In this document: positions 37,361 to 50,038 of the stretch, piece after piece
Position numbering within the stretch: the first letter of the stretch is position 1
Layout: every line of letters begins with the position of its first letter
NCBI RefSeq assembly: GCF_002968575.1
Contig: NZ_PVBM01000012.1
Coordinates: 1 to 64,000 of the forward strand
Length of the DNA: 64,000 nt
DNA from: Neorhizobium huautlense
GTDB taxonomy: Bacteria; Pseudomonadota; Alphaproteobacteria; Rhizobiales; Rhizobiaceae
Direction of reading: 5' to 3'
Position numbers and translations under genes: made by a program
The notes under the pieces: model-generated
What the model saw: the letters and a program-made list of their open reading frames with translations, nothing else
Database searches by the model: none
Told to the model about the DNA's origin: nothing

Positions 37361-38461
37361 TTACGCCAGCACCGCCTCCACCGGGCGCCGCGGCGAATAG
37401 GGTAGCGTCGGCCCATATCCGAACCGCATGACGATGTCCGGCCGACGTCCCGGCAGGCCCGCGAGCGCGGCCAGTTCGGGTCGCAGTTGCGCGACTTCCA
37501 CCGGTTGATTGATAAAGGCATGCTTGAGACCGAGCGCCGTCGCCTGCAGGGCGAAGCGCTGGCAGGCACGTCCGGCGCGGACCCAATGCTCCGCATCGTC
37601 ACGTGCGGAAACGAACACCGCTACGCCCGCTGACGAATGAAGCTGCCTTGCGTATTTATCGTTCTCGGTATCCGCGCGAAACGCGAGATCGAAGAGGTGC
37701 GGACCCAGCCAGCTCGGCAAGGATGGGTTGCCGCTCGTAGGCCCGAACAGCCCATCGCCAGATGCCATCGCCTGGCGCGGGTTGAAGCGCAACCAGGATT
37801 TCAGTTCGCGCATGAAGGCGGCGTCCGCCATTTGCGCGGTGTTTCCGGCGACGACGAGATCCCGCACGCGATCCATCCCGGGCTTCCCAGTGATCAGCAC
37901 GAGATCGACGCCCGGCATGTCTGCCGCCGCTACCAGAGCCTGGAGGTCTGCCGCGGAAACGCTTTTGCCGTCATAGTCGGCGCGGGTCGACTGGCGCCTC
38001 GGAATCGCAGCGAACAGATCGGATCGGCTCGCTGCTCCGTCGCCGAAAACCACTGTCACGGCGCCTTGATACGCCGGATCGAAGCTGATTTCTTCGGCAG
38101 GACGGCCAGCCGCGGAGGCGGCGAGCGCGAGGTTCTCGGCTGCGCATCCGAGGCTCGCAAACAGATGGTGGTCATCGGCATCGACCACGGGGGTGCGCCG
38201 CGTAGGGTCGGCGAGGATGTCAACGCGCCTCTCACCGAGGCGAAACCGCCACGGCTGCGTGTTGTGGCCGTTCGCGGCAAGCGTCGCGTAGCGGACAAGT
38301 TCATGCAGCCGGGGGTTTTCAGAGAGCACCGCCCTGCTCGCCGCAATCGAAACTTCGTACGCCTCCATCGAACCCATCTGGCGTAGGCTCCAATAGGTAG
38401 CACCTGCGCCCGCAATCGCCACCGCGCCGCCTCCGATGAGCAGACCGCGCCGCGTCATCAT
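37361..38461 (-). CDS. Acg-type nitroreductase-family FMN oxidoreductase with Tat-like N-terminus
   Basis: A 366-residue nitroreductase-superfamily protein of the Acg subgroup. The N-terminus TRRGLLIGGGAVAIAGAGATYW has a twin Arg and a hydrophobic stretch, so it is probably Tat-exported or membrane-anchored. FMN-contact pieces include ANGHNTQPWRF, RRQSTRADYDGK and ALGLKHAFINQPVE. Its ATG overlaps the stop of the FAD oxidoreductase gene, so the two are one operon. Acg-type proteins occur in hypoxia regulons elsewhere, which fits the FixK box upstream of the pair. The physiological substrate is unknown. Confidence 0.8.
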   Translation of the reverse strand: MMTRRGLLIGGGAVAIAGAGATYWSLRQMGSMEAYEVSIAASRAVLSENPRLHELVRYATLAANGHNTQPWRFRLGERRVDILADPTRRTPVVDADDHHLFASLGCAAENLALAASAAGRPAEEISFDPAYQGAVTVVFGDGAASRSDLFAAIPRRQSTRADYDGKSVSAADLQALVAAADMPGVDLVLITGKPGMDRVRDLVVAGNTAQMADAAFMRELKSWLRFNPRQAMASGDGLFGPTSGNPSLPSWLGPHLFDLAFRADTENDKYARQLHSSAGVAVFVSARDDAEHWVRAGRACQRFALQATALGLKHAFINQPVEVAQLRPELAALAGLPGRRPDIVMRFGYGPTLPYSPRRPVEAVLA

Positions 38462-39993
38462 CCGAATAACTCCCGCGGCATGCTCTCATCCCGGCGGCCG
38501 GGGCCATCGGGCAGGAAGGCGACATGGTCGCGGCGGCAGATCGCCCGAACCGCTGCGCGCGCCGTCATGAGGCCGCACGGCAATCCTCCGCCGGGCTGCA
38601 CCCATTGACCGACCATCCGGAACCGGTGGAGGCCCGGCAGAGTCTGGCGACGCGGCCGAAAGCCGACGCCTGGCGTAGGCAGAAAACCCTCCATGCTGCC
38701 TTTCCAGTTGCCGGTAAAGTGCATGACGCTGGCCGGCGTCGAAACATCCGTCACTTCGATGGCTTCGCGGACACCCGGCAGGCGGCGTTCGAGAATTTCG
38801 ATCACGGCTGAAGCAATGCGCCGCTTCTCCACCTCGTAGGCGGTCGCATCCTTGCGCTGCAGATCCTGCCAATAGGCATAGTTCCATGTTGGCAGAAAGC
38901 AGGTGACCGCGGTCTTGCCTGCGGGCGCAAAGGTCGGATCGAAATGGAAGATGCGGAACGCGACGGTGTCGAGGCTGGTCTCGGGATCGATTTCGAGTGG
39001 CTTGGCCAGAGTTCGAGCGAGGAAGCCGGGTTCCTGCGAAAGGTCCCTTGCGACGCCCAACGAGACTTGCAGATAGGAAGGAAAGACCTTCTGGCTGTCG
39101 TAGAAGGCGTCGATCGCCGCGTTGCGATAGCGGCCCTCGAGCATATCGTAGATCGTCGCGTGGCCGTCGGCGCCGGAGATCACCCAGTCCGCCCTGATAA
39201 TCTCGCCGTCGCTCAGCCTGACGCCCACGGCAACGTCATCCTCGACCAGGATCGTTTCGACTTTCGCCATGAGGCGCAATTTTCCGCCAAGCGCGCGGAA
39301 GCGTTGGGTGATCGCGTCGATGATCGACTTAGCGCCGCCCACCGCGTAACCCGCATTGCGTGCACTCATCCAGCCGAACATCAGCACGAGCGCGATGGCA
39401 GCCATGTCGGCCGTCGCGCTCTCAGTAAAGAAGCGGCGCAACAAGTCGTTTCTGAAGCGCTTGCCGTATTCCGCCGCGCTCATGCCAGCCCATTGCGTGA
39501 GCAGCGGAAGTTTCGGGATCAGGCGCAGCATCGCCCAGGTCCGGCGGGGCCAGGCGGCGTTCAGATCATCCATCGGAAGATTTGCCAGCCGACGGATGGC
39601 GGACGTGAACTCCATGATTTCTTCGGCATCCTCGGGCGCTGCATGCAGAAGCTCCGCCTCCATCCGGTCGACGTCGGAGTAAAACGTGAGCGAGCGCCCG
39701 TCTTCGGTTTCCACGCGCTGATATACCTCGGCGTCAACGAAGCGGAGCTTGTCGACATCGAAGACTTCGCGCCATTGCCGACCCAGCGTCCCGTCTGGGG
39801 CGGACCCAAGGAACCAGTGCAGGCAGGTTTCAAATGTGTAGCCGTTCCGCGTCCAGCTGGTCGCGAGGCCTCCCGGGATCGCATGCTGCTCCAGGATCGT
39901 CACCTGATAGCCGCAGAGCTGCGCGTAGACGCCGGTGCACAAGCCCGCGATCCCGCCGCCAATGATTACGATATGTCGAGCAGGTTCAGGCAT
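38458..39993 (-). CDS. FAD-dependent oxidoreductase, phytoene desaturase / retinol saturase-like
   Basis: A 511-residue flavoprotein of the CrtI / retinol-saturase amine-oxidase superfamily. The dinucleotide-binding motif IVIIGGGIAGLCTGVYAQLCGYQVTILE opens the protein, followed by GGLATSW. A C-terminal FAD block reads RFRMVGQWVQPGGGLPCGLMTARAAV. The start at 39993 follows GAGGGTTTCTCC; the longer frame runs into the promoter. A FixK box is centred 60 bp upstream. No carotenoid genes are nearby, so a carotenoid role is not supported. Confidence 0.78.
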   Translation of the reverse strand: MPEPARHIVIIGGGIAGLCTGVYAQLCGYQVTILEQHAIPGGLATSWTRNGYTFETCLHWFLGSAPDGTLGRQWREVFDVDKLRFVDAEVYQRVETEDGRSLTFYSDVDRMEAELLHAAPEDAEEIMEFTSAIRRLANLPMDDLNAAWPRRTWAMLRLIPKLPLLTQWAGMSAAEYGKRFRNDLLRRFFTESATADMAAIALVLMFGWMSARNAGYAVGGAKSIIDAITQRFRALGGKLRLMAKVETILVEDDVAVGVRLSDGEIIRADWVISGADGHATIYDMLEGRYRNAAIDAFYDSQKVFPSYLQVSLGVARDLSQEPGFLARTLAKPLEIDPETSLDTVAFRIFHFDPTFAPAGKTAVTCFLPTWNYAYWQDLQRKDATAYEVEKRRIASAVIEILERRLPGVREAIEVTDVSTPASVMHFTGNWKGSMEGFLPTPGVGFRPRRQTLPGLHRFRMVGQWVQPGGGLPCGLMTARAAVRAICRRDHVAFLPDGPGRRDESMPRELFG

Positions 39994-40046: not shown

Positions 40047-40060
40047 TTGAGGCAGGTCAA
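40047..40060 (-). promoter_or_regulatory. FixK/FNR anaerobox upstream of the FAD oxidoreductase - Acg operon
   Basis: TTGAG-GCAG-GTCAA fits TTGAT-N4-ATCAA with one mismatch in each half. Its centre is 60 bp before the ATG at 39993, which would place it close to -41.5 with a short leader. A TTTACC -10-like element lies between (40015-40020). Confidence 0.7.
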
Positions 40061-40138
40061 ACGGCCGTCTTGTCACAAAGGTTGTCAGTTCGAACATCCA
40101 CGGCACTGCCGTTTTCGCACAGCCCGCCGCGCCGCAGA

Positions 40139-40564
40139 TCACGTCCGTCTGCTCCATACTCTGCCATACAAGGTCATTCCGGCCAGCATGGCTGCGACGA
40201 ACAGGACCGTCTGGGGGAGGCCGACCGACAGGGATGCAACGGCCGGACCGGGACAGAAGCCGCCAATCCCCCAGCCCAGGCCGAACAAAGCCGAACCGAC
40301 CACCAAGGGTGCATCGATCCGATTGTCCGTCGGCACATGGAAGCTGTCGTCGAGTACCGGACGCTCCATCCGCTTCATCACCTGCACGCCGGTGAAGGCG
40401 ACGACGACCGCGCCGCCAAGAACGAACGCCAAGCTTGGGTCCCAGGCGCCGAAGATGTCGAGGAAACCCTGGACTCGGACAGGATTTAGCATGCCGGACA
40501 AGGACAGCCCGAATCCGAAGACGATGCCCGAAGCAAGCGCTACGCATGAAGCCAAAGATAGCAC
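40139..40564 (-). CDS. DUF6691 (YeeE/YedE-type) membrane protein, 5-prime end altered
   Basis: A 141-residue membrane protein of the DUF6691/YeeE-YedE family (putative sulfur-compound transport), with GFGLSLSGMLNPVRVQGFLDIFGAWDPSL and GFCPGPAVASL. Normally such genes begin with ATG and are paired with a second YeeE/YedE half gene. Here the reading frame opens with GTG, and the first six or seven codons lie in DNA that encodes a P-type ATPase on the other strand. The partner half is missing. It has probably lost its native start and promoter by recombination, so expression is doubtful. Confidence 0.65.
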   Translation of the reverse strand: MLSLASCVALASGIVFGFGLSLSGMLNPVRVQGFLDIFGAWDPSLAFVLGGAVVVAFTGVQVMKRMERPVLDDSFHVPTDNRIDAPLVVGSALFGLGWGIGGFCPGPAVASLSVGLPQTVLFVAAMLAGMTLYGRVWSRRT

Positions 40565-41779
40565 TTACGCAGGTATTGTGCGCCTGGTCGAGGACGCACA
40601 ACGCTCCAAGGCTCCCATGTCCCGGCTCGCCGACAGATGGTCGACAGGATTCCTGGCGATCACTGTGATAATTGCCTTTGCCGCATGGTGGTTCACAAGA
40701 GACCCGATCCGGGCCGTCGCGGTGCTGGTCGTGGCGACGCCCTGTCCGTTGATCCTGGCGGTGCCCGTGGCTCTCGTGGCGGGGCTTTCGCGCGCCGCCC
40801 ATTCGGCGTCCTCATCAAGGGCGCGCATTCTCTCGAGAACATGGCTCGCATTCACACTCTGGTCCTGGACAAGACGGGGACGCTCACCGACGGCCGGCCC
40901 CAGATCGCCTCGATCCACAGCCCGTTGGGCTACACTGAGGACGAAATCCTACGGTTTGCCGCCTCCGTGGACCAAGCATCGAAGCACCCTATCGCCCAGG
41001 CTATCGTTGCGGCGGCCCGGCGGCGAAATCTCCCTCTCGCTCTGCCGTCGGAGGTAAACGAGGTGGCGGGAGAAGGGATAGCGGGCTGCGTGGACGATAA
41101 GGAGGTGACGGTCGGCGGCAATGGCTTCGTGGAAAGGCGCGTCCAAGCCACGCCATTTTCCATTCCGGAAACCGCAGCCGGTTCGGTTGTCGTCGCTGTC
41201 GCGATCGCAAACAGGCTGGTTGGTTACATATTGATGGCCGATCCGGTGCGGGAAGAGGCGGCGGAGATGCTTGACGGGTTACGCCACGAAGGCATCCGGC
41301 GTATTCTGCTCGCCACCGGAGATCGCGCCGCTGTAGCCGAACGTGTCGCCGATGGCCTCGGTCTCGATGGAATTCGTTCCAGCCTCACTCCGGATCAGAA
41401 GGTACTGGTGGTACTGACGGAGCGAAAGAACGGACCTGTCATGATGGTTGGGGACGGCGTCAATGATGCGCCGGCCCTTGCGGCGGCAGACGTCGGCGTC
41501 GCGATGGGCGCGAGGGGAGCCGCCGCCTCCGCCGAAGCAGCGGACGTCGTCCTTCTGGTGGACAGGATCGACAGGCTCCGTACCGGGATAGAGATCGCCC
41601 GGCGATCACGCAGGATTGCGATCGAGAGCATTGTCGTAAGGATCGGCCTTTCGGTGTTCGCCATGGTGGCTGCAGCGCTCGGCTTCCTGCGCCCGGTCGA
41701 GGGAGCAATCCTGCAAGAGGCAATCGACGTCGCCGTCATTCTAAACGCGCTTCGGGCGCTAAGGATAAAACCGCGATGA
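40539..41779 (+). pseudogene. Truncated and frameshifted P1B-type heavy-metal ATPase remnant
   Basis: The DNA encodes the second half of a P1B metal-transporting ATPase: DSTYAGIVRLVEDAQRSKAP, the membrane motif ATPCPLILAVP (TPC rather than the usual CPC), phosphorylation motif DKTGTLT, HP motif SKHPIAQA, and hinge GDGVNDAPALAAADVG. The metal-binding domain and first membrane helices are absent. Between SRAA and FGVLIKG the frame changes at 40800-40801, where two bases stand where a codon is expected, so one base is lost. The 5-prime break coincides with the start of the DUF6691 gene. It is very likely non-functional, although the soluble part alone (from about 40840) remains open. Confidence 0.85.
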
Positions 41780-42011
41780 AGAGAATGGGCGCTGCTTGCT
41801 GCTTCATCTGACGGACGCCGATGCCGTCTATGCGGGTTTCGGCAAGCGGGCTGCACGCCCGCTGGCAAAGATTGATCCGTCCGCCATGGATGAAACGCAG
41901 TTCCCGGCAGGATCGACGCGGCGGCCCGCTTCAAGGAAGCCAGGCGTCGAGCCGTCATAGGCGGCCTGGAAGATGCCGCTGAAATTATTGCAGGGACAAA
42001 AGGAACTGTCT

Positions 42012-42025
42012 TTGAGAGGGATCAA
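42012..42025 (+). promoter_or_regulatory. FixK/FNR anaerobox before a small hypothetical gene
   Basis: TTGAG-AGGG-ATCAA differs from the consensus at one base. A good -10, TACAAT (42049-42054), lies where expected for a box near -41.5, giving a start near 42060. The rest of the 306-bp stretch 41780-42085 shows no gene. Confidence 0.72.
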
Positions 42026-42085
42026 AGATGATCTTCGCTGTGGGTGGCTACAATAACAATTGGAGGCTTTGCCTGGTTGGCCGGC

Positions 42086-42367
42086 ATGAACGTCCAGCCC
42101 AGGCACATGCAGGAGGCGTCATTGGATCTTCATCGCGCAGCAGTCGAGAAATTATGGGAACGACATCGTCCACTTGACGACCGCGGCCACTGCAAACTGC
42201 CGAGTCCAAACACTTCTTCCACCGAAGAAACGATCAGTGTCGAAGCATTCTGCGGTTGCCATGGCATTGACGAGGCCGAGATCAGGCAGCTTCAACGGCT
42301 TTTGGGCCCCTTCGCTATCAGAAATGAGCTGTGGGCGAACATTCGTCGCCAGCCGCGCTTCAGATAG
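42086..42367 (+). CDS. Small hypothetical protein downstream of a FixK box
   Basis: An open frame of 93 residues (NVQPRHMQEASLDLHRAAV ... ANIRRQPRFR) of no family I recognise; it has a CGCHG motif and a charged helical C-terminus. The reading frame extends upstream to a GTG at 42044, but the predicted promoter start near 42060 excludes that. The ATG at 42086 has only a weak ribosome site. A TTG at 42122 directly follows a strong AGGAGG and may be the true start (81 residues). It is believable mainly because of its promoter. Confidence 0.42.
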   Translation: MNVQPRHMQEASLDLHRAAVEKLWERHRPLDDRGHCKLPSPNTSSTEETISVEAFCGCHGIDEAEIRQLQRLLGPFAIRNELWANIRRQPRFR

Positions 42368-42464
42368 TTAATCGGAGCCCGACAATGCCCGCAGCACCGG
42401 CTGCGGGCATTGATCTGGTCCAACCCTGTTTCCGACCCCGCATACAGCAGGCCGCGACATGGGA

Positions 42465-43295
42465 TCAGCGGGCGAGGAAGACGGGAAAATCGCACTTGTC
42501 CAGCATCGAGGCCGTAACGCCACCGAATATCCTCTCGCGAAGCCGCGAATGACCATAGGCTCCCATGACGATCAGATCGCAATCGAAATCGAGCGCACGC
42601 TGCTCCAGAACTTCGGCGACGGGCCGTCCGCCGCTGGCAACCTGCTCGACCTGCACGGTGGCGCCGTGCCGGGCAAGATAGGTCGCCATGTCCGCGCCAG
42701 GCTCTCCGCCATTCTCCCAATAGGAACTGTCTGGATCGATCAGCACGACGTAAACGAGGTCCGCGGAAACGAACATGTCCAGCGCCTCTCGGGCGGCGCG
42801 AGCCGCCTCGCCCCGAGAATTCCAACCGAGCAATATCCGTTTGGGCTTCAAAGTCGACCCACGTTCCTTGGAGGCCAGGAGAAGCGGTCGGTGGGCATCG
42901 AAGACCGCACCGTTTATGATCGCCTTGGCAAGTTGAGGATCGCCGCGAACTCCATCGCCCAGAATGACCACATCCGCATAGAGCGCGCGCCTATATATCT
43001 CCTCGTCGAGCGTGACAGTCTCGGCATAGACTTCGCCGACGTCAAAAGACAGCCCGCTTGCTTTGCATTCTGCTTCCGCCTTCTTCCGGATCTCATCGAG
43101 AATTTTCAGCTCATCGTATCGCTGATCGAGCCATGCGGTACCGGCTGGAAAGTCGCCGACATTTGGCGGTAGGGCCAGGCCTGCAACAACGATGGAAAGG
43201 TGAGCCTCGAGTTCCGAGCCGAGTGCGATAGCTTTCTTGATATCGGACGCAGCGCCGGAGGCACCTATGACGGCAAGAACTGTCTTGAAAGGCAT
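42465..43295 (-). CDS. Universal stress protein with two Usp domains
   Basis: A 276-residue protein with tandem Usp folds: domain 1 about 1-140 (FKTVLAVIGASGAASDIKKAIALGSELEAHLS), domain 2 about 150-276 (KRILLGWNSRGEAARAAREAL). The ATP-binding signature GAYGHSRLRERIFGGVTASML near the C-terminus is intact in domain 2 only. The start at 43295 follows GAGGGAACGTGCC. A FixK box lies 79 bp upstream with a TTACAA -10-like element between, so low-oxygen induction is likely. Confidence 0.88.
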   Translation of the reverse strand: MPFKTVLAVIGASGAASDIKKAIALGSELEAHLSIVVAGLALPPNVGDFPAGTAWLDQRYDELKILDEIRKKAEAECKASGLSFDVGEVYAETVTLDEEIYRRALYADVVILGDGVRGDPQLAKAIINGAVFDAHRPLLLASKERGSTLKPKRILLGWNSRGEAARAAREALDMFVSADLVYVVLIDPDSSYWENGGEPGADMATYLARHGATVQVEQVASGGRPVAEVLEQRALDFDCDLIVMGAYGHSRLRERIFGGVTASMLDKCDFPVFLAR

Positions 43296-43367
43296 GGCAC
43301 GTTCCCTCACGATGGGCCTTAATTGACCTGATACCGAAAAGTTGTAACCGCGTAGCAGCGGGCAACG

Positions 43368-43381
43368 ATGATCTGCGTCAA
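43368..43381 (-). promoter_or_regulatory. FixK/FNR anaerobox upstream of the universal stress protein
   Basis: On the Usp strand the sequence is TTGAC-GCAG-ATCAT, matching TTGAT-N4-ATCAA at eight of ten positions. It is centred 79 bp before the ATG; TTACAA (43342-43347) fits as a -10. Confidence 0.65.
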
Positions 43382-43521
43382 AGTGGTTGGCGAATTTCGA
43401 CGCATAGAACCACAGCCCCGAAGATCATTGATGGGGACTAACGTTCTCCAGATGCTCCACCTTCTCATACAAACACGCGAGCAATGGTGGGGCCGACAGA
43501 AACCTAGAGGTGCCCGCAGCA

Positions 43522-43535
43522 TTGATCTCGATCAC
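43522..43535 (+). promoter_or_regulatory. FixK/FNR anaerobox with well-placed -10 before the DUF1488-like gene
   Basis: TTGAT-CTCG-ATCAC has one mismatch to the consensus. TATACT (43557-43562) is placed as expected for a class II site at -41.5, giving a start near 43570 and a 20-nt leader. This is the best complete FixK promoter in the window. Confidence 0.78.
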
Positions 43536-43589
43536 TGAAGATATGCGGGACATGCCTATACTGGAGCCTTCTACAGCGAGGAGGATGCT

Positions 43590-43871
43590 ATGCCATTGAA
43601 GCTCAAGTCAGGATTTATGACATCCGACGGAGACGAAGGCCGCCTCTTGATGGATTCGGGAACAGGCGACCAGGTCGTGCTTGGGACTCATGACGCGCTC
43701 CAAACCATCGCCAATCCGCCACGAGCAGATGAATTCAGGCTCCAAGAATATGTCGACCTCTTTAGCCAGATCGCAAGTGACAAGTTCGACAGGAAGGAAT
43801 TCGACGCCGCCGGCCATATTCGCGTGACGTCTGAGGACATCCGCACCTTCCGCTCCCTGCATGCGCGATAG
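43590..43871 (+). CDS. Small DUF1488-like protein
   Basis: A 93-residue protein. The C-terminal half (FSQIASDKFDRKEFDAAGHIRVTSEDIRTF) resembles the DUF1488 family, in which a helix is followed by a short strand ending in TS-x-D. The N-terminus is less similar. The ATG at 43590 follows GAGGAGGATGCT. It has its own FixK-box promoter. Function is unknown. Confidence 0.65.
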   Translation: MPLKLKSGFMTSDGDEGRLLMDSGTGDQVVLGTHDALQTIANPPRADEFRLQEYVDLFSQIASDKFDRKEFDAAGHIRVTSEDIRTFRSLHAR

Positions 43872-43996
43872 CGTTGCTGGCTTTAACGGCCGGTGGAAAG
43901 ACATCAGTTCCGTAAACCGCCACCACGAGTACAGGCAACAGGAACTTGCTCCCTGCCTAATCGAGAAATTCATCGAAGCTCCTCGGCCATATATCA

Positions 43997-44010
43997 TTGA
44001 TGCTGGTCAA
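43997..44010 (+). promoter_or_regulatory. FixK/FNR anaerobox upstream of hsp20
   Basis: TTGAT-GCTG-GTCAA has one mismatch to TTGAT-N4-ATCAA. It is centred 122 bp before the hsp20 ATG, leaving a leader of about 80 nt. The remaining part of 43872-44125 shows no gene. Confidence 0.7.
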
Positions 44011-44125
44011 TGCGTGCAAATCCGACACGAGCTTGAATTACGGTGCTCGATGAAGAGCTGCCACCGGGACGAGGAGAGCGCTTGTTTGCGCTGCATAAAG
44101 TCCCTTAACAGCAAAGGAGAATGTA

Positions 44126-44653
44126 ATGGTTGAGGCTGCGACGAAACTGCCCGTTCAGAAGGATGAAAAGCCAGTACAACCGGCTGGTACCTTCTGGTCT
44201 CCCTTCCAAACGCTTCGCAATGAGATTGATCGGCTGTTCGAAGATTTCGCTCCGACCTCCAGGCGTACTCCGGAACGCTCCTTGTTCGGCCGAGCCATGC
44301 CGTCGTTGAACGGCTGGGCCACCGCGCCGGCTGTCGATATTGTTGAGAACGACGACGCTTTTGAAGTCACCGCGGAAGTTCCTGGCATCGACGAAAAGAA
44401 CCTCGATGTGAAGCTTTCGAACGGTTACCTGATCATCCGCGGTGAGAAGACCGAGGAAAAGGAAGAAAAGCAGAAGGAATATCACGTCTCGGAACGCCGT
44501 TATGGCTCCTTCCAGCGGACGTTCCAGCTTCCGGACGGGATTGACGCCGAGAAGGTGGAGGCGACCTTTCATAAAGGCATTTTGAAGGTCAAGCTGCCCA
44601 AGAGCGCAGAAGCTAAGAAGAACGAGCGCAAGGTTGAGATCAAAGCTGCTTGA
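44126..44653 (+). CDS. hsp20: Small heat-shock protein, Hsp20/alpha-crystallin family
   Basis: A 175-residue class A small heat-shock chaperone. The alpha-crystallin domain spans about 65-165 (APAVDIVENDDAFEVTAEVPGIDEKNLDVKLSNGYLIIRGEK), with GILKVKLPK as the C-terminal strand and a preceding EIDRLFEDF helix. The ATG at 44126 follows AAAGGAGAATGTA. It has an upstream FixK box and a strong terminator, so it forms a single-gene unit. Low-oxygen rather than heat control is suggested; I see no ROSE-type thermometer, though I could not fold the leader. Confidence 0.94.
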   Translation: MVEAATKLPVQKDEKPVQPAGTFWSPFQTLRNEIDRLFEDFAPTSRRTPERSLFGRAMPSLNGWATAPAVDIVENDDAFEVTAEVPGIDEKNLDVKLSNGYLIIRGEKTEEKEEKQKEYHVSERRYGSFQRTFQLPDGIDAEKVEATFHKGILKVKLPKSAEAKKNERKVEIKAA

Positions 44654-44678
44654 CCGACCGGCTCTTACTTTCCAACCC

Positions 44679-44714
44679 GGCGCGCATCAATATTTTGCGC
44701 GCCTTTTCTTTTTA
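44679..44714 (+). terminator. Rho-independent terminator after hsp20
   Basis: GGCGCGC (44679-44685) and GCGCGCC (44697-44703) make a perfect 7-bp stem around an 11-base loop, followed by TTTTCTTTTT. It lies 25 bp after the hsp20 stop. Confidence 0.9.
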
Positions 44715-44980
44715 GTCGGCGAACAGCTAACAGCCGCTCCAACATAGCTCCAACATAGCTCCAACATATCCGTAGCCTTGTCCGGCGCGAGACCGGGAGA
44801 AGTTGCTGGTGAGTCGCCCCGCAGATGTCGGTAGGCTCCAAAGGATGAAGAAGCCGCGTTGTTGCTGAACCCCACCGTACGCCTGCGGTCGCAGACGTCG
44901 TTATTGAAGCAATTGCTGAATACCGCGGGTTGCATGAGTTGAAAGAGACCGGCAGGCAGTATCTGGCGGTCTCTTTCAGA

Positions 44981-45424
44981 CTAGAAGGCCAGGTGCTTTT
45001 CGATTTCCTGCACCGGTAGCTTGATAAGATCCTTATCATACTCTGCAAGGATCAGCTTTCTGACCGAGACCGGCATCGCGTGACGCAGGTCTGCAAGCGC
45101 CTTCGGCGGTGCGACGACCACCAGCTTATGGACTTTCTTTTCTTCGCAAATCGCCTCCAACCTCTCCGCGACAGTGACGGAGAAGTGTTCCTCTTCCTGC
45201 TCATGGAAATCGGTTTGTCCAAGCGCGCTGCGTCGGCTACCAACCGCCGCTCGACCCGGCCTGTCCGTCCCCTGGCTACGTGCCGAAGGATTGTCAGGCG
45301 CTTCGATCACCTGTTCGACCTCCAACGCCAGTTTAAACGCCGTACCGGTATTGCGCAGCAAAAGTGCCTTCTGCCCGTCCGCAACGAGCACCCAGGCGTC
45401 GTAGGGAATGACCTTGCTCTTCAT
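44981..45424 (-). CDS. Host-attachment family protein
   Basis: A 147-residue protein of the Host_attach family, first named for Agrobacterium attachment genes. Hallmarks are WVLVADGQKALLLRN near the N-terminus and KLVVVAPPKALADLRHAM ... KDLIKLPVQEIEKHL at the end, an eRF1-like fold. No signal peptide is present, so a direct adhesin role is doubtful. The ATG at 45424 follows AAGGAGGATGATGTG. A FixK box is centred 61 bp upstream. Confidence 0.83.
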   Translation of the reverse strand: MKSKVIPYDAWVLVADGQKALLLRNTGTAFKLALEVEQVIEAPDNPSARSQGTDRPGRAAVGSRRSALGQTDFHEQEEEHFSVTVAERLEAICEEKKVHKLVVVAPPKALADLRHAMPVSVRKLILAEYDKDLIKLPVQEIEKHLAF

Positions 45425-45478
45425 CACATCATCCTCCTTGGAGATAGGAGCAGGATAATCATTTTGGAAACGTAGGGT

Positions 45479-45492
45479 TTGATCGGTGTCAA
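45479..45492. promoter_or_regulatory. FixK/FNR anaerobox between host-attachment gene and nuclease gene
   Basis: TTGAT-CGGT-GTCAA has one mismatch. It is centred 61 bp before the host-attachment ATG, with a TTATCC -10-like element (45453-45458) on that strand. It could also act on the plus strand, where the nuclease gene begins 324 bp away. Confidence 0.7.
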
Positions 45493-45815
45493 TCATCCTA
45501 CCGTTCTGGGCTCGGCCACCAGAAGCGCCTTTGACGCTGCTCGATACCATCCGCGGAAAAGATGGAGACCGTCCTGGAATACGTGCGGATCTTAATATGC
45601 AATCCGGCCGACCGCTTCCGGCCACCCGGCGAAACGGTTACCTCATATTCGCCGACCGGCGGAAGAGCCGCAATCTTGAGAAGCGGAACAGCGACGTGAA
45701 CGCCGCCCGATCGGGAGAGCATAAGTACGTTGATTTCCGTCAACTTGCCGACAGTGAGGATGAGTTAGACGAAGAAATACGATATTTATTCATTTGAGAC
45801 ACAAGGAGGCCCGCG
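45493..45815. other. 323-bp stretch without a firm gene, open on both strands
   Basis: Two weak open frames overlap here. The plus-strand one could start at ATG 45597 and end at 45797 (66 residues, ending DSEDELDEEIRYLFI), 18 bp before the nuclease start. The minus-strand one covers 45498-45743 with only a TTG start. Neither has a good ribosome site or a family I recognise. The stretch may be a long leader for the nuclease gene. Confidence 0.4.
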
Positions 45816-47420
45816 TTGAACGATCACTCCCCGCGTATCGCGTTCCACGGAGCAGCCGGCACTGTAACCGGCTCCTGTTTCCTCCTTGAGTTCGGAGATA
45901 TCCGAATCCTCATCGATTGCGGGATGTTTCAAGGCTCGAAGACTGAAAAGGAACTCAATTATCGTCCTTTTCCGTTCGCACCCTCATCGTTGGATGCGGT
46001 TCTCCTCACACATGCCCATATCGATCACAGCGGCCTGCTTCCCAAGCTCGTTAAGGATGGCTTTGCCGGTCCGATCTTTTGCGCGCCGGCGACCTTGGAT
46101 CTGTGTGCAGTCATGCTGCCCGATTCCGCTCATATCCAGGAAATGGAAGTGGAGCAACTCAACCGGCGCAATGAGCGGCGGGGCCGCAAATCTGTCGATC
46201 CGATCTATACCGCGGCTGACGCTATGGCCGCTCTGGTTCAGATGAGAACTGTTGGGTTCGAGCAATGGGAGGAACTGGATCCGGCCATCCGCTTCCGTTT
46301 CTGGAATGCTGGGCATCTTCTCGGATCAGCCTCCATCGAGGTCGAGATCGGGACGGCCGCGGCGCGCCAGCGGCTTCTTTTCTCAGGCGATATCGGCCCG
46401 AGCCACAAGCTGCTGCAATTCGATCCTGAAGCCCCTCCCGGCTGGGACTATGTGATTTGCGAGAGCACCTACGGCGACGTCGACCGCCACGATCCTTCCG
46501 ACGAAGCGCGGCGGACCATGTTGCGTGATGAGGTCCGCCATGCCTGTCGCCACCGGGACGGAGCTCTTCTTATACCATCCTTCGCCGTCGAACGTACTCA
46601 GGAGCTTTTGGCCGACCTGATCAATCTTATGGAGAGACACCAGATTGACCAATGCCCGATCATCATCGACTCTCCGTTGGCCCTGCGAGCAACCGAGGTC
46701 TTCAAGAAACATGCCCGGGACCTCGAGAACGGTGACCTGCTGCTTCGTGCCCTTCGAGCCAGGAATGTCCGGTTTACCGAAACCGCCGAGCAATCCAAGG
46801 CGATTGACAACATGCGAGGTTTCCACATCGTCATCGCGGCGAGTGGCATGTGCGAGGCTGGCCGTATACGACATCGCCTGAAAAATTGGCTGTGGCGGGA
46901 GGAAGGGACCGTTCTCCTCGTAGGCTATCAAGCTACCGGAACGCTGGGACGCCTGTTGGAAGACGGTGCCCCTACCGTCCGGATCCAGGGCGACGAGATT
47001 GCCGTAAGAGCAAGCATCCGCAAGCTTGACGTCTACAGCGGCCATGCCGACGGGCCGGAACTCGCTGCATGGCTTGCGGCACGCGCGCCGGTCCGGAAAG
47101 CCGTATTTCTGGTCCATGGGGAACTGCCCGCAGTCGCGGCCATGAAGGAGCGCATTTCCACCCTGCAGCCTCACGTCAGGGTCATAGAGCCGTCGCTCGA
47201 TGCCGAATATGCTCTGACGCCCAGGGAACCGAGAGAGATTTCCATCGCGCAGGCTCCGCCGAGGCTCAACCCATTACAGGTCGGTCGCAGGGACTGGCAT
47301 AACGACTTCCAGTCTCTGATCCTGGATCTCCAGGAGAAACTGGACAGTGCGGCAGACGAAAAGGCTCGCGGCGCAATCCTGCGAAAGGTCAGACGCGCTC
47401 TCTCGGGATCAGAGGAGTGA
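45816..47420 (+). CDS. Beta-CASP metallo-beta-lactamase-fold RNase
   Basis: A 534-residue MBL-fold protein with a beta-CASP insertion, related to archaeal/bacterial CPSF73-type RNases. Zinc motifs are THAHIDHSG, AGHLLGSAS and FSGDIG; the beta-CASP part holds PSFAVERTQEL and MCEAGRIRHRLKNWL; YSGHAD and VHGE close the site. Likely an RNA-processing nuclease. There is no ATG near the family start: the TTG at 45816 has an excellent AAGGAGG, so a TTG start is assigned. It converges with the alcohol dehydrogenase gene 13 bp away. Confidence 0.87.
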   Translation: MNDHSPRIAFHGAAGTVTGSCFLLEFGDIRILIDCGMFQGSKTEKELNYRPFPFAPSSLDAVLLTHAHIDHSGLLPKLVKDGFAGPIFCAPATLDLCAVMLPDSAHIQEMEVEQLNRRNERRGRKSVDPIYTAADAMAALVQMRTVGFEQWEELDPAIRFRFWNAGHLLGSASIEVEIGTAAARQRLLFSGDIGPSHKLLQFDPEAPPGWDYVICESTYGDVDRHDPSDEARRTMLRDEVRHACRHRDGALLIPSFAVERTQELLADLINLMERHQIDQCPIIIDSPLALRATEVFKKHARDLENGDLLLRALRARNVRFTETAEQSKAIDNMRGFHIVIAASGMCEAGRIRHRLKNWLWREEGTVLLVGYQATGTLGRLLEDGAPTVRIQGDEIAVRASIRKLDVYSGHADGPELAAWLAARAPVRKAVFLVHGELPAVAAMKERISTLQPHVRVIEPSLDAEYALTPREPREISIAQAPPRLNPLQVGRRDWHNDFQSLILDLQEKLDSAADEKARGAILRKVRRALSGSEE

Positions 47421-47433
47421 CGCCTTTGGGTTG

Positions 47434-48417
47434 TCAGGGGATGAGGACGGCTGCGCCGCTCAGGCGCCCTTCCCTAAGATCATCGAGTGCGCGGTTTGCA
47501 TCTGCGAGCGGATAGACGACAGTATGCGTCCTCACGTTTGCTGCCGCCGCGGTCGGGAAGAACTCCTGCGCATCTTCCCTGGTTAGGTTCGCGACGGAGA
47601 CCACCTGCCGCTCTTCCCAAAGAAGGGCGTAGGGCATCTGCGGAATGTCGCTCATATGAATGCCACCGCAGACAACCCGCCCACCCTTTTTGACTGCCTT
47701 CAACGCTGCCGGCACCAGACTGCCGACCGGAGCAAAAATGATCGCTGCATCCAATGGTGCCGGCGGCAGCTCATCGGAACCACCCACCCATGCCGCCCCG
47801 AATTCCTGGGCAAAGGCCTGCGCCTGTTTGTCGTCCGGCCGCGTAAAGGCGTAGACCTGCCTTCCTTGCCAGCGGCAGACCTGCGCGATGATGTGCGCGG
47901 CCGCTCCGAACCCGTAAAGCCCTATCCGCCTACCTTCTCCCGCCTTCTTGAGGGATCGCCAGCCGATCAAGCCCGCGCAGAGAAGTGGTGCCAGGGCAAC
48001 AGGGTCGGCCGCCATCGGGAGATCGAAGGCATAGGCTGCATCTGCCACCGCATGCGTGGCGAAACCGCCGTCCCGCGTGTAGCCCGTAAAAAGAGGATCA
48101 TCACAAAGGTTTTCGGCCCGCGATTTGCAATAGCCGCAATGACCGCAGGTATGGCCGAGCCAGGGAATCCCGACTCGTGAACCAATTCTCGCCGAGGGAA
48201 CTCCCTCCCCGACCGCATCCACGATGCCGACGACCTCATGGCCGGGCACAAGCGGAAGTTTTGGGTTTGGAAGATCCCCGTCGACCACATGCAGATCGGT
48301 CCGACAGACCGCACATGCCTCTATCCGGACACGGAGCTCTCCCGCTTTCGGTTCAGGATCTGGCCGCTCCACCAGTTCGAGCGGGTTGCCGACCTCATGC
48401 AATACCATGGCCTTCAT
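47434..48417 (-). CDS. Zinc-dependent alcohol dehydrogenase (AdhA-type)
   Basis: A 327-residue medium-chain zinc alcohol dehydrogenase. Catalytic zinc ligands lie in CAVCRTDLH and PGHEVVG; the structural zinc lobe is CGHCGYCKSRAENLC. The cofactor loop reads GLYGFGAAAHI, slightly off the GxGxxG pattern, as is normal for the AdhA group. The start at 48417 follows GGAGGTTCC; the longer frame lacks similarity. I see no FixK box before it, unlike its neighbours. Confidence 0.88.
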   Translation of the reverse strand: MKAMVLHEVGNPLELVERPDPEPKAGELRVRIEACAVCRTDLHVVDGDLPNPKLPLVPGHEVVGIVDAVGEGVPSARIGSRVGIPWLGHTCGHCGYCKSRAENLCDDPLFTGYTRDGGFATHAVADAAYAFDLPMAADPVALAPLLCAGLIGWRSLKKAGEGRRIGLYGFGAAAHIIAQVCRWQGRQVYAFTRPDDKQAQAFAQEFGAAWVGGSDELPPAPLDAAIIFAPVGSLVPAALKAVKKGGRVVCGGIHMSDIPQMPYALLWEERQVVSVANLTREDAQEFFPTAAAANVRTHTVVYPLADANRALDDLREGRLSGAAVLIP

Positions 48418-48563
48418 AAGGAACCTCCGCGCAATCGTCCATCCGTTGCAAGGCGTCGCTGGCTCGCCGCTCAGCCTGCGAGCTTCCGCAGAGAGTCGCT
48501 CCATATACTACACCCGATCTGCCCCTCAAAAACCGGTTGCAAAATAAAATCGGTATGCTAGCA

Positions 48564-48608: not shown

Positions 48609-49190
48609 ATGAAGCTCTACTCTGCGCCCGGCTTCACCAGCCTGGCCGACCACATCGCATTGCTGGAGGCTGAACTCCCGTTCAAGCTGGTCAAGGTTGA
48701 CATCGAGACCAAGCAGATCGAAGGCGGCGGCAGCTATACAGATATCAACCCAAAGGGCTACGTGCCGGCGCTTGAGTTCAACGATGGCGAGGTGCTGACC
48801 GAAAATGTCGCGATCCTGGCTTGGGTCGCCGATCGCGCACCGCAGCTCGCGCCGCAGGGTCATCTGGGCCGCGAGCGCCTGCTCGAAATGCTGAGTTTCA
48901 TCGCGACCGAGATTCACAAGCGCTTTCCCACTTACCTGTCGCTTCCTGAAGGCATCCGGGAGCAGACCGCTCAGGAAATACTGCACTGGTTTGGCTTCGC
49001 AGCAGGCCGATTAGAGCGGGGATATCTGTTTGGAGAGACATTCACTGTCGCTGATCCCTATCTCTTCCAACTGGCGTGGGGTGCAGCTCAACTCGGCTTT
49101 CGGCTGCCCGAGCCGCTTGGCGATTATATCGCGCGGATCGAACAGCGGCCCGCCGTACAAGCGGCGTTTCACCGGGAGGGCTTGGCATGA
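48609..49190 (+). CDS. Glutathione S-transferase, beta-class-like
   Basis: A 193-residue GST. The thioredoxin-like N-domain (KLYSAPGFTSLADHIALLEAELPF ... NPKGYVPALEFNDGEVLTENVAILAWVAD) has the cis-Pro VPAL and ENVAI glutathione sites. The beta-class Cys near residue 10 is replaced by Phe-Thr-Ser. The ATG at 48609 follows AGAAGGAGTCG. It is translationally coupled (ATGA) to the next gene, suggesting a detoxification pair. Confidence 0.87.
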   Translation: MKLYSAPGFTSLADHIALLEAELPFKLVKVDIETKQIEGGGSYTDINPKGYVPALEFNDGEVLTENVAILAWVADRAPQLAPQGHLGRERLLEMLSFIATEIHKRFPTYLSLPEGIREQTAQEILHWFGFAAGRLERGYLFGETFTVADPYLFQLAWGAAQLGFRLPEPLGDYIARIEQRPAVQAAFHREGLA

Positions 49191-50038
49191 ATGAGCTTGT
49201 TATCCGCACTGACAGGCTCGAGCTCGCCACGCAGAGCTTCGGCGACCCGGTGCATCCACCCGTCATTCTGATCATGGGCGGGATGGCATCGATGTTGTGG
49301 TGGCCGGAGGAATTCTGCCGGCGGCTCGCTGAACAGGGCCTCTTCGTCATCCGCTACGACCAACGCGACACAGGTCTTTCGACAAAATATCCGCCCGGTC
49401 AGCCCGGCTACACTTTCGACGACGCCGTCGATGATGTCTTCCGCGTGCTCGACGGCTACGCGATTTCGAGCGTGCATCTCGTCGGCTTTTCTCTCGGCGG
49501 CATGATCGGCCAAGGCGCCGCATTGAAGTTTCCGGAACGCGTGCTTTCCCTGACGGCGATCAGCACCTCGCCGGTCGGGGTGGACAAATCGCATTTCCCT
49601 CCGAGCGGCGAGGCCTGGATGGAGCATATGTCCCTGGAGGCGGATTGGTCGGACCGCTCAGACGCCGTCGCATATCTGGTCGAGGATGCGCGCCTGACCG
49701 CCGGGACGGCACATACGTTCGACGAAGCCGGGACCCGAGCCTTCCTTGAACGAGATTTCGACCGCTCCGGAGGTTATCTCAGCGCCACCAACCATAGCAT
49801 CCTCTTTGAGGTCGGCGACATATGGCAGGGCCGGCTGAACGAGATGATGGCGCCGCTTCTTGTCCTTCATGGCACGGCCGATCCGGTCTTCCCGCTGGCG
49901 CACGGCGAGGCACTGGCGCGAGCTGTGGTCGATGCAAAGCTCGTAAAGGTAGAGGGCGGCGGCCATGAAATTCATCCCGAAGATTGGCGAGAGATCATTT
50001 CCGCCATCGACGAACATGTCCGAACATCCGCCCAGTAA
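49187..50038 (+). CDS. Alpha/beta-hydrolase
   Basis: A 283-residue alpha/beta-hydrolase-fold enzyme. The nucleophile elbow is GFSLGG, the oxyanion region MGGMASMLWW, the acid is Asp in LHGTADPVFP and the His in GGGHEIHPED. The substrate is not deducible; relatives include esterases and aclacinomycin methylesterase-like enzymes. Its start overlaps the GST stop. Confidence 0.85.
   Translation: MNELVIRTDRLELATQSFGDPVHPPVILIMGGMASMLWWPEEFCRRLAEQGLFVIRYDQRDTGLSTKYPPGQPGYTFDDAVDDVFRVLDGYAISSVHLVGFSLGGMIGQGAALKFPERVLSLTAISTSPVGVDKSHFPPSGEAWMEHMSLEADWSDRSDAVAYLVEDARLTAGTAHTFDEAGTRAFLERDFDRSGGYLSATNHSILFEVGDIWQGRLNEMMAPLLVLHGTADPVFPLAHGEALARAVVDAKLVKVEGGGHEIHPEDWREIISAIDEHVRTSAQ

Follow-up and report, generated by a model that had tools for sequence, protein, structure and literature searches.

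A likely FixK/FNR-controlled gene pair for a CrtI-like FAD protein and a twin-arginine Acg flavoprotein in a rhizobial stress island

Proteins of the Acg family are strongly induced in hypoxic mycobacteria, and Acg/Rv3131 of M. tuberculosis belongs to the DosR regulon; to our knowledge, no settled function has been assigned to these proteins. Acg is an FMN protein for which work on MsAcg found no use of NAD(P)H, and its role as a nitroreductase is contested (PMC11841060). A comparable set of low-oxygen stress genes has been described in B. diazoefficiens. There, Hsp20, a universal stress protein, a host-attachment protein and the nitroreductase blr4652 depend on FixK2 and are induced under microoxic conditions, with a change of -95-fold for blr4652 in a fixK2 mutant (PMC9104804, PMC6515984). 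Hsp20 and a zinc alcohol dehydrogenase have also been predicted as members of the FixK regulon (PMC2908626). Here, a stretch of 64,000 nucleotides from Neorhizobium huautlense (contig NZ_PVBM01000012.1, positions 1 to 64,000; the window) has been analysed around two neighbouring flavoprotein genes, for which a sequence-only reading had proposed a coupled redox function.

Both genes lie on the minus strand. The first (38458–39993) codes for a CrtI-like FAD oxidoreductase of 511 amino acids, with a GGGIAG FAD-binding motif near the N-terminus and without an export signal, and the second (37361–38461) for an Acg/Rv3131-family FMN protein of 366 amino acids with a twin-arginine leader. The sequence-only reading was correct in describing two reading frames that overlap by an ATGA stop/start (38458–38461) and a FixK box common to both: a TTGA-N6-TCAA site, TTGAGGCAGGTCAA (minus-strand reading TTGACCTGCCTCAA), is found at 40047–40060 on the minus strand, upstream of the CrtI-like gene, with 53 bp between the near edge of the site and the start codon at 39993. 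The centre of the box, about 60 bp before this start codon, would be compatible with an activator site at -41.5 followed by a short leader. Six TTGAN6TCAA sites are present in the 64-kb window, where 0.59 would be expected; none of 100 shuffles reached this number, and all six fall within 8 kb (40047–47703). In B. diazoefficiens, the same 14-mer as TTGACCTGCCTCAA is listed as the FixK2 box before ppsA (blr4655) (PMC9104804). Judged by its promoter, the pair would be assigned to the FixK/FNR regulon, and the two genes likely form a FixK/FNR-controlled operon. Boxes of this type are also found in other genomes, where 9 of 20 other Acg genes (0.02 expected) and only 4 of 26 other CrtI-like genes (0.05 expected) have a strict FNR box in the 200 bp before the gene. 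Since in several genomes an Acg or a CrtI-like gene stands alone with an FNR box of its own, each family appears to be independently tied to low oxygen. The link of a broad, uncharacterised CrtI-like clade to FNR boxes is new.

The genes around the pair form an island. Directly upstream of the pair, the minus strand carries a gene for a DUF6691 (YeeE/YedE-like) membrane protein (40139–40564). Beyond it lie genes for a universal stress protein (42465–43310, minus strand), an Hsp20 small heat-shock protein (44126–44653, plus strand) with a FixK box at 43997–44010, a host-attachment/baeRF-family protein (44981–45625, minus strand) with FixK boxes at 45479 and 45730, a beta-CASP metallo-hydrolase (45816–47420, plus strand) and a zinc-binding alcohol dehydrogenase (47434–48504, minus strand) with a FixK-type box at 47690 within the reading frame. 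The universal stress protein and the beta-CASP protein have counterparts in Rhizobium sullae, and the Hsp20 shows 53% identity to the Pfam-confirmed HSP20 of that species. Because such stress genes are known under FixK2 in B. diazoefficiens and have been predicted for the FixK regulon, the island is of a known kind, and it is the CrtI-like gene that is unusual. A heavy-metal P-type ATPase gene (40440–41779) appears to be a frame-shifted, truncated pseudogene, whose TPCPL transmembrane part and DKTGTLT part lie in different frames; a short ATPase remnant is also present in the R. sullae island. The beta-CASP protein scores 322 bits against the type VII CRISPR Cas14 model, far under the cut-off of 800. 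As 53 of 289 alphaproteobacterial genomes have homologues of it, the protein is probably a common beta-CASP nuclease belonging to the FixK island rather than a Cas14. Further on, an alpha/beta hydrolase (49076–50038) is akin to macrolide esterases; its score of 328 bits falls short of the model cut-off of 420.

The CrtI-like product belongs to the CrtI/amine-oxidase superfamily of FAD proteins and is complete in length; in a Pfam search it matches Amino_oxidase (3.9e-15) and also NAD_binding_8 and DAO. It aligns over its full length with the NCBIfam models crtI_fam (TIGR02734; 139.9 bits, below the cut-off of 238.1) and carotenoid isomerase (124.1 bits, below the cut-off of 586.9). The best fold match of its AlphaFold model (pLDDT 90) is the gamma-carotene desaturase 4rep (E 5e-31, TM 0.74), and the second is CrtI 4dgk, so the fold is that of a carotenoid desaturase while the curated TIGR02734 score is not reached. 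Its description as a cytosolic FAD enzyme of the desaturase/saturase type stands as regards superfamily and lack of an export signal. The label "retinol-saturase-like" is too specific; among models and folds, carotenoid desaturases and isomerases come nearest, at low identity, and a literature search found no paper that connects retinol saturase with the bacterial homologues of phytoene desaturase. The stated absence of carotenoid genes agrees with the genome, in which a search at E<=0.001 gave no further CrtI-like protein and the single PF00494 match (288 aa) adjoins a TrmFO-like FAD protein, with no crt or hpn gene next to it. This PF00494 protein is probably NDUFAF6-like rather than a phytoene synthase, which would make phytoene or squalene unlikely as substrates of the strain's own making. 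More distant relatives of the CrtI-like protein occur in NRPS/PKS clusters; among them are efiO of the epifadin cluster, with 29% identity, and one from a Streptomyces NRPS locus. They point weakly toward polyene or acyl-chain chemistry; the reaction of EfiO is not established in the epifadin paper (PMC11310079). Any substrate class proposed below is drawn from the modelled fold and these distant relatives.

The Acg protein exceeds the cut-off of the NCBIfam model "Acg family FMN-binding oxidoreductase" (NF047509; 317.1 bits against 199), and its AlphaFold model (pLDDT 86) shows the Acg fold in a single chain, with MsAcg 2ymv as top match (E 2e-17, TM 0.69/0.77). In its twin-arginine leader MMTRRGLLIGGGAVAIAGAGATYWSLR (38381–38461, minus strand), R4-R5 are invariant in 16 of the 16 homologues having the N-terminus, the remaining leader being variable, and the model places a single helix at residues 5–29, with low confidence for residues 1–20. 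The conserved twin arginine is accompanied by a hydrophobic stretch, and TatC is encoded in the genome. The earlier designation of this product as an FMN protein with a twin-Arg signal is therefore well founded at the level of predicted features, and the protein would be a Tat substrate. Since the c-region has no AxA cleavage site that is uniform among the homologues, the leader may be either cleaved or retained as a membrane anchor. A periplasmic location of Acg would agree with an electron donor other than NAD(P)H. In lactobacilli, fatty acids are saturated by a route that pairs a flavin hydratase with an enone reductase of the nitroreductase fold; a similar route was considered for the pair and dropped, because Acg is predicted here to be exported.

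Adjacency of the two genes extends beyond the source strain, so that the refuting case named in the sequence-only reading, a pair adjacent nowhere else, does not apply. In R. sullae, plasmid pWSM1592_1 (L036) carries both genes adjacent and in the same order, separated by 65 bp, so that the ATGA overlap is not conserved; the products are 59% (CrtI-like) and 69% (Acg) identical to those of the window, and no box lies directly upstream of the CrtI-like gene. The plasmid island comprises GroEL, Hsp20, a Crp/Fnr regulator, two Usp, baeRF, CrtI-like, Acg, beta-CASP and ADH genes. Its baeRF/host-attachment gene (L036:7368-7821) is matched as two separate parts and thus appears frame-shifted. In Novosphingobium sp. 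CF614 (L024:6001-6650), decayed 3' and 5' remnants of both genes adjoin in the same order. The genes lie 1.8 kb apart and divergent in a Caulobacterales MAG (L005), and 46 kb apart on a plasmid of Paraburkholderia aromaticivorans. Scoring the best few candidates per genome, which limits sensitivity, a CrtI-like gene was found in 2 of 201 relatives (the own genome and G169), in 2 of 395 family members (one only 36% identical) and, among 385 genomes sampled across the class, in the own genome only; an Acg gene was found in 28 of the 201 relatives by the same procedure. Missing from nearly the whole genus, the CrtI-like gene is thus an accessory gene. Its homologues (37–75% identity) are distributed over Alphaproteobacteria, Acidobacteria, Verrucomicrobia, Bdellovibrionota, Aminicenantes and Chloroflexi; only 4 of 24 carrier genomes have an Acg homologue, none of them among the acidobacterial or Chloroflexi carriers, and no conserved third gene accompanies the CrtI-like gene in 25 loci. 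Adjacency is therefore rare, and the two genes mostly occur apart.

The conserved co-occurrence expected for the two families is found in part. Among nine alphaproteobacterial or likely alphaproteobacterial CrtI-like carriers, five have an Acg homologue (E<=1e-60) against 12 of 288 genomes of the class sample (Fisher p 4e-5), and the beta-CASP gene of the island, taken as a control, is present in six of the nine against 52 of 288 (p 0.002), the samples being small and the Fisher p values ignoring phylogeny. As beta-CASP is likewise enriched, part of the Acg association is due to the island and not to the pair. In the trees, the CrtI-like protein of the window groups with Hyphomonadaceae (99/97) and that of R. 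sullae with G169, L008 and Asticcacaulis (83/84), while the Acg of the window is sister to that of another alphaproteobacterium, G381 (100/99); in the class scan, with the best few candidates per genome scored, no CrtI-like gene was reported for G381. Since the trees separate the window and R. sullae copies, the two operons are not simple recent copies of each other, and the association of CrtI-like and Acg genes is either old or has been formed more than once.

On balance, we lean towards an operon under FixK/FNR control whose two flavoproteins act separately, within a rhizobial microoxic-stress island of DosR-like type. The sequence basis of this reading is provided by the genes, their overlap, the box, family and fold, the conservation of the twin arginine, and the recurrence of the island and the pair. 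When oxygen falls, FixK (or FnrN) would act on the 40047–40060 box and turn both genes on. The CrtI-like product would belong to an uncharacterised clade of FAD enzymes and be either soluble or located at the membrane surface; on a long hydrophobic substrate of the polyene, prenyl or acyl type, it would add or remove hydrogen at a C=C bond and, because oxygen is scarce, probably exchange electrons with the quinone pool. Acg would be exported by Tat, folded with its FMN, and be active on the periplasmic side, possibly still anchored, as an Acg-type flavin reductase or a flavin reservoir. The two enzymes would have a common trigger and a common stress, and not necessarily a common electron path. 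A possible alternative, to which we give about a third of our credence, is that the pair is a by-product of island assembly, in which separate low-oxygen stress genes were gathered by horizontal transfer without any joint function. The occurrence of each gene elsewhere alone under its own FNR box would be accounted for in this way, as would the different nearest relatives in the two trees (Hyphomonadaceae for CrtI-like, another alphaproteobacterium for Acg), the fact that window and R. sullae copies are sisters in neither tree, and the enrichment of the beta-CASP gene in CrtI-like carriers. It fits less well with the ATGA overlap, with an enrichment of Acg stronger than that of beta-CASP, and with the same gene order in R. 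sullae and the Novosphingobium remnants despite the different CrtI-like subclades of the window and R. sullae.

The coupling of the two proteins into one redox pair, as proposed in the sequence-only reading, was not supported: the genes are mostly apart and have their own FNR boxes when alone, beta-CASP is associated in the same kind of way, and the compartments differ. With a cytosolic CrtI-like enzyme and an exported Acg, there would be no common NAD(P)H and no contact. A direct exchange of electrons between the CrtI-like enzyme and the exported Acg, for instance via quinol, with lipid saturation or detoxification of quinone or nitro compounds as its outcome, is very unlikely; operon, joint regulation and recurrence would be in its favour, but most carriers hold one gene only (those of Acidobacteria and Chloroflexi having CrtI-like without Acg), and no conserved membrane electron carrier adjoins the pair. 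A long shot is the idea of the CrtI-like clade as a new, oxygen-independent lipid or quinone (de)saturase serving as a low-oxygen electron valve, with Tat-exported Acg completing the pathway on the outward-facing side of the membrane. As to carotenoids, retinoids or squalene-type lipids made by the strain itself, the full-length alignments to crtI_fam (140 bits) and carotenoid isomerase (124 bits) and the carotene desaturase fold could suggest them as substrates; this is highly improbable, however, given that both NCBIfam scores are under their curated cut-offs and that the only squalene/phytoene-synthase-like gene lies beside the TrmFO-like FAD protein, away from crt or hpn genes.

The preferred reading, two separately acting flavoproteins under common control, bears on both families. 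If export is confirmed, a Tat-exported Acg would exclude NAD(P)H as direct donor, and a genetically easy rhizobium carrying Acg in similar gene company offers a simple test system for Acg function. The CrtI-like clade represents a conserved enzyme across several phyla with repeated FNR-type control; since carotenoid synthesis is unlikely in the genome analysed here, the substrate of the clade can be put to the test.

Compared with the described systems, the locus resembles the FixK2 regulon of B. diazoefficiens (blr4637-blr4655) in its Hsp20, Usp, host-attachment protein and nitroreductase under FixK2 boxes, and differs from it in the CrtI-like gene, no counterpart of which was found in the portions of that regulon covered by the sources at hand (PMC9104804, PMC6515984). 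With EfiO of S. epidermidis, the CrtI-like protein shares the wider clade and 29% identity over 95% of its length, EfiO belonging instead to a natural-product cluster without low-oxygen context. With the CrtI/CrtISO/RetSat superfamily (4dgk, 4rep), it shares the FAD fold, a full-length alignment and an architecture of the hydrophobic-substrate type; unlike these enzymes, it is about 25% identical to CrtI, stays under the family cut-offs, has no carotenoid pathway beside it and forms its own clade (37–75% identity) spanning several phyla. Finally, the second protein differs from Acg/Rv3131 in its Tat leader and in a FixK/FNR box instead of DosR, and is only about 22% identical to MsAcg (2ymv) across the fold match; it resembles Acg/Rv3131 in passing the family cut-off, in the double-nitroreductase fold and the conserved HNTQPW motif, and in a predicted low-oxygen control in the company of Hsp20 and Usp genes.
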